Assembly: GCA_021776915.1 (NCBI GenBank)
Contig: JAIQZU010000065.1
Coordinates: forward strand, 1 to 43,907
Length of the DNA: 43,907 nucleotides
Direction: 5' to 3'
Origin: Candidatus Scalindua sp.
GTDB taxonomy: Bacteria > Planctomycetota > Brocadiia > Brocadiales > Scalinduaceae
The notes under the pieces: generated by a model
What the model saw: the letters and a program-made list of their open reading frames with translations, nothing else
Told to the model about the DNA's origin: nothing
The model's database searches: none
In this document: in pieces, positions 36,532-40,402 of the stretch
Layout of the letters: each line of letters begins with the position of its first letter
How positions within the stretch are numbered: position 1 is the stretch's first letter
Position numbers and translations under genes: made by a program

Positions 36532-37487
36532 ATGAAAAGCTTTATAAATCAACTAATAAAAGTCATTGACGAAAAGGATAGTTGTTCTGTTGTGGGATTG
36601 GATCCACAACTGGAATATATGCCTTTAGAAATAAAAAAAGCCGCCTTAAAAAAAAGAGGAGGCAGCCTGAACAGTGCCGCCAGAGCAGTTCTCGACTTCA
36701 ACAAACAGATAATAAATATAATTCACAAACACGTGGGAATCGTGAAACTCCAAATTGCTTTTTACGAAATGCTCGGACCCTGGGGGCTTAGAGCGTATTC
36801 CGACACAGTTAAATACGCTAAAAAAAAAACCTGATAGTCATTGGGGATATAAAAAGGGGAGACGTCCCTCACACCGCAGAAGCCTACGCTAATGCACATC
36901 TCGGCATTCTTAAATCCAACGATTCGAGAGAAACCACTTTTGAAGTAGATGCCGTCACTGTCAACCCTTTCCTGGGGACAGACAGCATCCTGCCTTTCAT
37001 CAAACTGGCCGGAAAAAATGGCAAAGGAGTATTTATCCTTGTCAAAACCTCTAACCCATCATCTAAAGATATCCAGGACAGAAGATGCAACAACAAAACA
37101 ATCTATCAATTAGTTGCAAACCAGGTAAACAAATGGGGAAAAGATTTAATAGATAAAAGTGGTTACAGCCCTATTGGCGCGGTAGTCGCATCAACAAACC
37201 CAAAAATCACTAACAATCTCAGGAGTATTATGCCAAATGCATACTTCCTGGTACCCGGATTTGGTGCGCAGCGTGCCAGCTTAAAAAACATTGAGAGATG
37301 CTTCAACCAGGACGGTTACGGCGCAATAGTAAACTCCTCCAGAGGCATAATCTACGCTTACAACCTTTCACCCTGGAAGGAAAAATATGGAGCCAGGCAA
37401 TGGGAATGTGCAGTTGAGGAAGCGGTTATAAAAATGAATAAAGACCTGAAAGATGTGACTGGAAAAATCAAAGAAAAGAAGTCATAA
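36532..37487 (+). CDS. pyrF: Orotidine 5'-phosphate decarboxylase, split by a -1 frameshift
   Basis: Last step of UMP synthesis. Frame one (36532-36834) gives 100 residues with the type 2 PyrF N-terminus (SVVGLDPQLEYMP, VKLQIAFYEMLGPWG). It stops at TGA just after a run of ten A. Re-reading one A at 36828 enters the second frame, which is open to 37487 without interruption and encodes the rest. That part includes the catalytic DIKRGD, TAEAYA, VTVNPFLGTDS, KTSNPSSKDIQD, PGFGAQ and NSSRGIIYAY. The joined protein is 318 residues, normal for type 2 PyrF. Both halves are well conserved, so this is a programmed or slippage frameshift, a very recent mutation, or a homopolymer sequencing error. The gene is essential for pyrimidine prototrophy unless another copy exists. 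Confidence 0.88.
36820..36829 (+). other. A10 slippery run at the pyrF frameshift
   Basis: Ten consecutive A lie between GCT and CCTGA. Zero frame reads three Lys codons, ACC, TGA; a -1 shift reads AAC CTG ATA and restores PyrF. Runs of nine or more A support both ribosomal -1 slippage (A AAA AAA) and RNA polymerase slippage. A weak stem GGGGA-GACG-TCCCT lies about 25 nt downstream, further than usual for a stimulator. Confidence 0.7.
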
Positions 37488-37497
37488 ACTGGAATAC

Positions 37498-38628
37498 TTA
37501 TAACAAAACCATATTGTCTCGGTGTATTATCTCATCATATGGTTTATAACCAAGAGTTTTCTTTATCAACGAAGAACGAAGCCCTTTTATTTTCTGGACC
37601 TCTCCGGTAGAATAGTTCATAAGGCCCCTGGCTGCCTCCGTGTTCTCATTGACGTTAAGTATTGAAACAATATCACCCTTAATAAAATCACCATCAACCT
37701 TTACTACACCTGACGGCAATAAACTTTTACCCTTCTTAAGCAAGGCATTCAATGCACCATCATCTATATAAATTTTTCCTTTTGGCCTGGCAATAAACCC
37801 TATCCACCGTTTGCGACTTGCAATCTTTTTCTTATTAGGAATAAACAGTGTACCCACATTTTCATAGTTCATTATTTTTGACAAGATATCCGGCTGTCTT
37901 CCATTAGCAATTATCACCGCTTCTCCTGAACCGGTAGCAATGCCGGCAGCCTCAAGCTTGCTCTCCATACCACCAATACCTTCCCTGGTCTTTTGCTTGA
38001 ATGCAAGTTTCCTGATATCATCAGAAATAGTATCCACAACTGATAAAACGCTGCAACTTTTACCGGATGTTGGAGGAGTGGTATATAATCCATCTACAGA
38101 AGACAAGAGTATCAGCAAATCAGCACGTAACAGGTTTGTAACCAGTGCAGACAGAATATCGTTATCCCCAAAAGTTATTTCTTCCACTGATATAGTATCA
38201 TTCTCGTTAATAATTGGAATGGTCTTAAAATTTAATAACGAGTGCAATGTATTACATGTATTTAAATATCGCTGGCGATCTTCAAAATCCTGTCTTGTAA
38301 GAAGTAATTGTGCGGCATGATATCCATGCTTCTTAAAACATTCGTTATAAATCTCTATTAATTTCCCTTGCCCGATTGCGGCTGCAGCCTGGAGTTCAGG
38401 GAGGTTGCCTGGCCTTTTCTGAAATCCTAACGCTCTGATACCCGCCCCAACCGAACCTGAACTTACAACAACTACACTGTAACCGCTGGCACGAAGTTGA
38501 ATAACCTGCTTCGACAATTCCATAATCTGATGCTTATCCAGGAAGCCATCCTCATTTGTGAGTACACGGGTTCCGATCTTAATTACAATCTTATTGACGC
38601 CGGATAATATTTCTTCTCGAATATTCAT
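37498..38628 (-). CDS. proB: Glutamate 5-kinase
   Basis: First step of proline synthesis: ATP-dependent phosphorylation of glutamate. I start it at the ATG at 38628 (MNIREEILSGVNKIVIKIGTRVL); the frame extends 4 codons to a TTG. The 376-residue product has an amino-acid kinase domain (VVVSSGSVGAG, PIINENDTISVEEITFGDNDILSALV, GIGGMESKLEAA) and a C-terminal PUA domain (about 280-360, GKIYIDDGALNALLKKGKSLLPSGVVKVDGDF). proA is not adjacent. It is divergent from the histone gene. Confidence 0.95.
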   Translation of the reverse strand: MNIREEILSGVNKIVIKIGTRVLTNEDGFLDKHQIMELSKQVIQLRASGYSVVVVSSGSVGAGIRALGFQKRPGNLPELQAAAAIGQGKLIEIYNECFKKHGYHAAQLLLTRQDFEDRQRYLNTCNTLHSLLNFKTIPIINENDTISVEEITFGDNDILSALVTNLLRADLLILLSSVDGLYTTPPTSGKSCSVLSVVDTISDDIRKLAFKQKTREGIGGMESKLEAAGIATGSGEAVIIANGRQPDILSKIMNYENVGTLFIPNKKKIASRKRWIGFIARPKGKIYIDDGALNALLKKGKSLLPSGVVKVDGDFIKGDIVSILNVNENTEAARGLMNYSTGEVQKIKGLRSSLIKKTLGYKPYDEIIHRDNMVLL

Positions 38629-38673
38629 AACTTTCAACAAGTTTTCATACCAAATTCTTTGTAAGAAAAGCGC

Positions 38674-38701
38674 TTGACTTCTTTAGCTTTTTTGGTATTA
38701 T
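38674..38701 (+). promoter_or_regulatory. Promoter for the histone-fold gene
   Basis: TTGACT (38674-38679), a 16-nt spacer and TATTAT (38696-38701). Predicted start near 38708, about 35 nt before the ATG, which has AAGGAG at the right spacing. The signals suggest strong expression. Confidence 0.7.
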
Positions 38702-38742
38702 CCCGAAGTATTTTTAACCTATATAGTTTTAAGGAGAGAAAA

Positions 38743-38946
38743 ATGGCAAAGAAAGCAGCAAAGAAAAAGGGTAAAGAAGTACTTGTCGTTGCTAGCAAGG
38801 TTAGAGAATATGTAAAAAGCAAAAAATGTAATACATCCGGAGAATTCATTGGTGAATTAAGCAATACAGTTTACGATGCCATTGATAAAGCAATAAGTAG
38901 AGCACAAGGCAACAACAGAAAAACTATTCAAGCAAAAGACGTATAG
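38743..38946 (+). CDS. Small histone-fold DNA-binding protein with lysine-rich tail
   Basis: I start it at the ATG at 38743, which has AAGGAG 7 nt upstream; the longer open frame to 38674 runs through the promoter. The 67 residues comprise a basic N-terminal tail (MAKKAAKKKGKE) and a single histone-fold-like domain: VLVVASKVREYVKSKKCN (helix 1), GEFIGELSNTVYDAIDKAISRAQ (long central helix) and NNRKTIQAKDV. The RKT followed by a short helix start with Asp is the loop-2 signature of histones. The layout resembles the Bdellovibrio Bd0055-type bacterial histones as I remember them. It probably binds and compacts or bends DNA as a dimer. It is monocistronic with a strong promoter, as expected for an abundant nucleoid protein. 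Confidence 0.82.
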   Translation: MAKKAAKKKGKEVLVVASKVREYVKSKKCNTSGEFIGELSNTVYDAIDKAISRAQGNNRKTIQAKDV

Positions 38947-38956
38947 TTTATAGGGT

Positions 38957-40402
38957 TTACTTTGGATCGGCAGATAATCTTTCCTTAAAAATCTCTGTTA
39001 AAATTTTGGGGTTTGCTTTACCTTTGGTAATTTTCATAGTTTGACCAATCAAGAAGGCTAAAGCGCTTTTTTTCCCTAGGCGGTAATCTTCTGCCGCTTT
39101 AGAGTTCTCTTCTATAACTTTTGTTACAACATCATCAAGTTCACTTACATCGTCCATCTGAGTTAAATCTTTCTCTTTAACTATAGATGTGGCGGTTTTT
39201 CCTGTATTTATCATTTCAATAAAGACGTCTTTAGCGATTGAACTTCCAATTGTTGGTTTGATTTTGATTAATTCGACCAGCATCTCTGGTGAAATAGCAA
39301 AATCCTGCACATTTGTTTTTCGTTCATTTAGTTCCCGAAGTACATCATTAATAATCCAGTTACTTAGCTCTTTCGGAGAATCCTGAGACATTTTTACACA
39401 TTCCTCAAAATAGTCTGCAAGAGGTTTATCTTCCGTCAAGACGCCTGCATCATAGTCAGAAATAGTATATTCATTCACAAACCTCCGATGCCTGTCGACA
39501 GGAAGTTCCGGAATTGTTGCCTGGGTTTCATCGATCCATCCCTGATCAATCCAGACAGGAACTAAATCCGGTTCGGGAAAATACCTGTAGTCATGTGCCT
39601 CTTCTTTTGAACGCATTCGCCTGCTTACAGAGTCAACATCATCCCATAATCTTGTTTCCATTAACACGTCCTCACCCTTATCGAGTAAACTGCCTTGCCT
39701 TGATATTTCGTATGCAATCACTTTTAAGACAGCCTTCATAGAATTAAGATTTTTAATTTCTACCCTGTTGCCAAGAATATTTGAACCCTTTTCACGTAGA
39801 GAGATACTCACCTCAAATCTTAAAGAACCTTCCTGCATCTTACAGTCTGACACACCTATGTAAAGCAATATATTCCTGAGTGTCTGCATATAACTTTCCA
39901 CTTCGTCAACACTTCTCATATCCGGCTGAGTCACTACCTCTAAGAGCGGCACTCCTGCCCTGTTAAAGTCAACTAAACTGTAATTTGCACCTGTTGTTTC
40001 AGGATGAACTAGTTTGCCCGCCTCCTCTTCCAAATGTACATTGTGTATGTCGATTCTTTTCTCTTTTCCCTTTACGACTATATCTACATAGCCGTTATTG
40101 CCAATATTAAAGTAGTTTTGCGAAGTTTGATAGTTTTTAGGTAAATCAGGATAATAATAACTCTTTCTATCAAAGTTAGTAAATTTACTTATCTCGCAAT
40201 GCAAAGCAAGAGCCGCCTTTAATGAATGCTCAAACGCCTTTTTATTCATCACCGGCAGAACTCCCGGCAAACCCAAGCAAATTGGACATGTCTGTGTATT
40301 TGGCTCAGAACCAAACTTAGTACTACATCCACAAAAAAGCTTAGATTTGGTATCTAATTCTGCGTGGGTCTCCAATCCCATCACCACTTCATATTTCATC
40401 AA
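38957..40402 (-). CDS. gatB: Asp/Glu-tRNA amidotransferase subunit B
   Basis: GatB phosphorylates the misacylated Glu-tRNA(Gln) or Asp-tRNA(Asn) and receives ammonia from GatA. The 481 residues start MMKYEVVMGLETHAELDTKSKLFCGCSTKFG with the zinc-site cysteines (C24, C26, and C39/C42 in TCPICLGLPG). KSYYYPDLPKNYQTSQ and the C-terminal YqeY-like tRNA-binding tail are present. It is 9 nt after gatA. Confidence 0.97.
   Translation of the reverse strand: MMKYEVVMGLETHAELDTKSKLFCGCSTKFGSEPNTQTCPICLGLPGVLPVMNKKAFEHSLKAALALHCEISKFTNFDRKSYYYPDLPKNYQTSQNYFNIGNNGYVDIVVKGKEKRIDIHNVHLEEEAGKLVHPETTGANYSLVDFNRAGVPLLEVVTQPDMRSVDEVESYMQTLRNILLYIGVSDCKMQEGSLRFEVSISLREKGSNILGNRVEIKNLNSMKAVLKVIAYEISRQGSLLDKGEDVLMETRLWDDVDSVSRRMRSKEEAHDYRYFPEPDLVPVWIDQGWIDETQATIPELPVDRHRRFVNEYTISDYDAGVLTEDKPLADYFEECVKMSQDSPKELSNWIINDVLRELNERKTNVQDFAISPEMLVELIKIKPTIGSSIAKDVFIEMINTGKTATSIVKEKDLTQMDDVSELDDVVTKVIEENSKAAEDYRLGKKSALAFLIGQTMKITKGKANPKILTEIFKERLSADPK

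Follow-up and report, generated by a model that had tools for sequence, protein, structure and literature searches.

Face-to-face (FtF) histones are defined by a tetramer interface that combines an arginine and an asparagine near the end of helix alpha2 with an arginine in loop 2 (PMC11390915, PMC12701072). Tetramers of HLp from Leptospira perolatii (PDB 9QT0-9QT2) wrap about 60 bp, and in E. coli the protein protects DNA (PMC12701072). Bacterial FtF histones commonly have tails, most of them positively charged, whereas archaeal FtF histones are generally tail-less (PMC11390915). Dimer histones, such as HBb (Bd0055) of Bdellovibrio (PDB 8CMP, 8FVX), are without the arginine and asparagine of the FtF interface (PMC11390915). 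The kind of protein described here is thus already known, and both the FtF class and its lysine-rich tails have been published before. A literature search for histones in Scalindua or in the nucleoids of anammox bacteria found nothing of relevance. The present analysis places this DNA-wrapping class, for which bacterial structures come only from Leptospira, in the anaerobic ammonium-oxidising bacteria.

The histone gene, its locus and its fold

The window, which is the whole 43,907-nucleotide stretch of Candidatus Scalindua sp. DNA that was analysed, encodes at 38743-38946 a protein of 67 amino acids (MAKKAAKKKGKEVLVVASKVREYVKSKKCNTSGEFIGELSNTVYDAIDKAISRAQGNNRKTIQAKDV) with a pI of about 10. 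The features of the locus are as follows.

37498..38640, minus strand: proB (glutamate 5-kinase), named from sequence; divergent neighbour, kept beside the histone gene in families f1 to f4 of the order
38674..38701, plus strand: sigma-70-type promoter, TTGACT-16-TATTAT with extended -10 TGG, conserved in family relatives
38731..38736, plus strand: Shine-Dalgarno sequence AAGGAG, just 5' of the ATG at 38743
38743..38946, plus strand: gene for a probable FtF-type alpha3 histone, 67 amino acids, stop codon included (ATG 38743, TAG 38946)
38743..38778, plus strand: N-terminal tail MAKKAAKKKGKE, 12 residues with 6 Lys and a net charge of +5, low-confidence in the model
38791..38820, plus strand: predicted helix alpha1 (residues 17-26), in which A17, S18, K19, R21 and K25 align with the HLp DNA contacts A13, S14, K15, K17 and K21
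38839..38910, plus strand: predicted helix alpha2 (residues 33-56), the putative dimer interface, with R53 of the FtF tetramer signature at the helix end
38911..38943, plus strand: N57, loop 2 (R59-K60-T61), D66 and a predicted one-turn alpha3, carrying the RxTxxxxD clamp; N57 and R59 complete the R-x3-N-x-R signature
38957..40402, minus strand: gatB (Asp/Glu-tRNA amidotransferase subunit B), named from sequence; convergent neighbour, kept beside the histone gene in families f1 to f4

The interval given in the initial annotation, 38674-38946, extends from the -35 hexamer to the stop codon: the open frame starts at a TTG at 38674, and the gene start proper is the ATG at 38743. Relatives in the family start at the equivalent site (MAKK..., with the same Shine-Dalgarno region), one of them with GTG. 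TTGACT (38674-38679), a 16-nt spacer and TATTAT (38696-38701) agree with the consensus in 10 of 12 positions, with TGG before the -10 box; a tightened version of this pattern has two matches in the window, where shuffles predict 0.09. An alignment of 15 upstream regions from the family shows CTTGAC in every one of them, together with a strongly conserved -10 box and Shine-Dalgarno sequence, and most of the order's more distant families also have TTGAC followed by a TGnTAnnAT-like box at similar spacing. The near-consensus promoter and AAGGAG noted initially therefore stand, and their conservation marks them as genuine expression signals that have been kept. A pattern scan of the window gave no terminator. 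The gene had also been called single, which is correct for the transcription unit, as proB and gatB flank it on the opposite strand, and incorrect for the genome, which encodes a second histone.

The arrangement proB-histone-gatB is conserved across families f1 to f4 where the flanks are readable; proB was unseen in one record (L021). The closest genes in named records, at 76-91% identity over the matched part, occupy the same locus and come mostly from Candidatus Scalindua, other Brocadiaceae or Planctomycetota MAGs, which makes the Scalindua group of anammox planctomycetes the most likely home of the window's genome. Intact orthologues were present in 15 of the 17 genomes of the window's family. 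One genome with no intact histone gene (G006) is an incomplete assembly in which gatB was also not seen. Another (G008; L027 about 1430-1670 / L120) carries a degraded FtF histone gene at the proB-gatB locus, with an altered Shine-Dalgarno sequence, a deletion in the tail region and an unrecognisable C-terminal part, which reflects either a real loss or a MAG error. The FtF histone is absent from ten genomes of family f5, each 99% or more complete; five of them gave a weaker histone match, and the four matches that were read are all dimer-type. In eight f5 genomes, the retrieved gatB flanks, at most 1.5 kb long, contained neither a histone gene nor proB. Elsewhere in the window, pyrF (orotidine 5'-phosphate decarboxylase by reading, 36532-37487) is split where the frame shifts within ten consecutive A (36820-36829); either the gene is broken or the homopolymer was misread in sequencing.

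The histone fold claimed initially was borne out, as was the RKT motif, which occupies residues 59-61 in loop 2. A sequence search of solved structures returned HLp (9qt0) first, with an E-value of 3.8e-10, and then HBb of Bdellovibrio at about 1e-6; a 40-sequence profile reached 5.9e-25 for HLp and 3.9e-20 for HBb. The AlphaFold2 monomer (pLDDT 84.5, low in the tail) shows histone helices at residues 17-26 and 33-56 and a short helix at 64-66, and its best solved match is HLp, to which it fits at 0.8 A (9qt0; TM 0.80 when normalised to the query and 0.95 to the target length). Foldseek ranked 9qt0 and 9qt1, both HLp, at the top at 0.7-0.8 A, followed by HBb and the archaeal HTkC, and the predicted fold has the shortened alpha2 and one-turn alpha3 of the FtF class. 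While the 40-sequence profile recovered solved histones, curated Pfam and NCBIfam families stayed below threshold. Single-protein scans gave only CENP-S at 18.4 bits, under its cut-off of 28, with the archaeal histone family also sub-threshold, and PF00808 (archaeal/eukaryotic nucleosomal histones) had no match above cut-off in the window's own genome. The solved-structure searches were decisive for the family assignment. A WcaE glycosyltransferase match in the Pfam/NCBIfam scan was likewise sub-threshold and is attributed to chance.

R53, N57 and R59 form the R-x3-N-x-R signature and correspond to R49, N53 and R55 of HLp at a constant offset of +4. Every intact orthologue of the order retains it (L001-L026), and the RxTxxxxD motif is present as R59-K60-T61-IQAK-D66. 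The initial annotation, which compared the protein with short bacterial histones in general, had noted neither this signature nor the FtF class nor the genome's second histone. The histone core evolves under purifying selection, with dN/dS of about 0.07-0.29 where synonymous sites are unsaturated; the value for L015 is meaningless, since its synonymous sites are saturated. The window protein is thus a genuine and conserved bacterial histone, and we consider it highly probable that it is an FtF alpha3 histone that acts as a general, tetrameric DNA-wrapping nucleoid protein.

The lysine-rich tail

Six lysines among residues 1-12 had been counted correctly; at the local lysine frequency, this has a binomial P of 2e-4 per 12-mer, and none of the seven neighbouring proteins checked contains a comparable 12-mer. 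Residues 1-10 have a mean pLDDT of 49 in AlphaFold2, suggesting that the tail is probably disordered. The initial annotation described such tails as uncommon, which applies to the Bdellovibrio-type dimer histones but not to bacterial FtF histones (PMC11390915). In our own count, tail charge was at least +3 in 37 of 56 distinct FtF homologues (median +4), whereas the median for 40 dimer-type histones was -2; the P value of 3e-12 for this comparison overstates the difference, as relatives are non-independent and starts were picked by Shine-Dalgarno score. Of the three dimer-type entries with a high tail charge, one has a start that was doubtfully chosen, and the other two carry long N-termini that are rich in cysteine and ZZ-like. 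Long cysteine-rich N-termini like those of published ZZ histones were observed in the dimer-type histones L077 and L098. A tail with six lysines is thus unusual for an ordinary protein and typical of the known FtF family, as already published.

The protein could be an FtF histone whose lysine-rich start serves translation initiation through A-rich early codons, or results from drift in AT-rich DNA, rather than serving DNA binding or signalling. We consider this unlikely. The tail lysine codons are AAA/AAG, the tails of the family range from 8 to 12 residues, with a reduction to MAKE in another family of the order, and the growth of lysine-rich tails out of AT-rich leaders has been discussed (PMC10919886). 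However, a positive charge of +3 to +5 is held through these length changes in 15 of 15 family orthologues, positive tails that are longer and of different sequence occur across the Phycisphaerae, and the dimer-type histones from the same genomes have acidic starts. The tail bears on whether tails of positive charge arose several times to serve one purpose.

Role among the nucleoid proteins of the genome

The second histone of the window's genome (G000:C27, L111 2796-2996) is dimer-type, begins with MSDSSSEKEILVVASK... and has a slightly acidic start; its gene adjoins a peroxiredoxin-like gene. Its relatives are found in several genomes of the order, some of which are without an FtF histone. 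As the genome also encodes three HU/IHF-family proteins, the FtF histone is one of several nucleoid proteins. Judged by sequence, anammox bacteria have both bacterial histone classes side by side, which is the useful addition made here, and tetramer histones, dimer histones and HU sharing one chromosome offer a natural comparison.

Very probably, the FtF histone forms a four-part core that wraps DNA, as in HLp. Two chains would dimerise via crossed alpha2 helices, and by analogy with HLp, two dimers would join via R53, N57 and R59 into a compact tetramer. This would grip DNA non-specifically along a positive band formed by the ends of alpha1 (A17-S18-K19, R21, K25), loop 1 (T31, G33) and loop 2 (K60, T61), and DNA would be wrapped round it, roughly 60 bp if HLp is a guide. 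The flexible, strongly positive tail might make extra phosphate contacts or reach to neighbouring DNA. The single-gene unit would be transcribed from the conserved promoter, and its product, which may be highly abundant, would serve as a general nucleoid protein alongside HU/IHF and the separate dimer-type histone.

The presence of three HU/IHF proteins and another histone, the viability of a fifth family of the order without any FtF histone, and the degraded copy in one congener are also what would be expected if the protein were not a global chromatin protein and instead bound DNA locally in a minor role or as a regulator. Such a role is distinctly unlikely, as the promoter and Shine-Dalgarno sequence are conserved, the core is under purifying selection, the sequence-independent DNA contacts are common to HLp and the window protein, and the neighbours proB and gatB, both housekeeping genes, share no theme. 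Beyond the role of a general nucleoid protein, one can imagine a two-histone chromatin, in which a tailed wrapping tetramer and an acidic-start dimer serve different DNA or growth states and a reversibly modified tail tunes compaction. We regard this as highly improbable, and lysine modification of the tail is speculation; if true, it would be a separately evolved counterpart of eukaryotic histone tails.

Comparison with described histones

Among described histones, HBb shares with the window protein the histone fold, the short alpha3, the RKT motif, the RD clamp and an SK motif in alpha1. With an alignment E-value of 1e-6, an almost equal fit of the predicted monomer (0.8-1.0 A) and an RKT motif typical of the dimer class, the window protein might be taken for a bacterial-dimer histone that acts only as a dimer, bending or coating DNA. 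This is very unlikely. HBb is without the tetramer-signature R and N, has no lysine tail and forms dimers only, whereas R53 and N57 are present in the window protein; the second histone of the genome, which fits the dimer class, has K and D at these positions. In a maximum-likelihood tree of 101 cores, one branch (support 96/84, recovered in 96% of bootstrap trees) separates 55 rows with the FtF signature from 44 others, placing the window protein and HLp on the FtF side and HBb on the opposite side; the tree spans 57 columns, and the inner order of the FtF side is unresolved. The window tail carries +5 against a dimer-class median of -2, and a separate dimer-type histone is encoded by the same genome. 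Membership of the dimer class was rejected on the signature, the tree branch and the tail charge. A spurious open reading frame is ruled out by the conserved start, dN/dS and the conserved locus.

Archaeal HTkC (Thermococcus kodakarensis, PDB 9F2C) belongs to the FtF class, and the predicted fold lies within 1.2 A of it. A tailed FtF histone was also observed in a MAG record labelled Heimdallarchaeota (L051 328-549), beside htpG- and MoxR-like genes, with an end, GNNRKTIQARDV, nearly identical to that of the window protein; it could reflect gene transfer or misbinning of the contig, or be a tailed FtF histone that truly belongs to Asgard archaea. Closer to hand, FtF histones of Phycisphaerae and other Planctomycetota (among loci L040-L072) have the same signature and MAKK-type lysine tails. 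They are about 45-55% identical to the window protein, often have longer tails (up to 39 residues) and mostly carry R-S-T in loop 2.

HLp has in common with the window protein its length, its fold (0.8 A), the shortened alpha2 and alpha3, the R-x3-N-x-R residues, the RD clamp, an N-terminal tail and nearly all crystallographic DNA contacts. Core identity is about 41%. The HLp contacts A13, S14, K15, K21, T27, G29 and T57 are identical in the window protein, while K17 and T56 are replaced by R21 and K60. Several differences count against the FtF-tetramer reading: the HLp interface residues S52, T61 and F63 are changed to G56, K65 and V67, K54 and R59, two persistent HLp DNA contacts in simulation, are N58 and Q63, and the sequence searched singly falls short of the Pfam histone family. 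The window tail is more lysine-rich than that of HLp, loop 2 reads RKT instead of RTT, and the gene lies between proB and gatB rather than smc and map. Finally, the bacterium of HLp is without other canonical nucleoid proteins, whereas the window genome has three HU/IHF genes and a second histone, and the role of its FtF histone may therefore be narrower than that of HLp.
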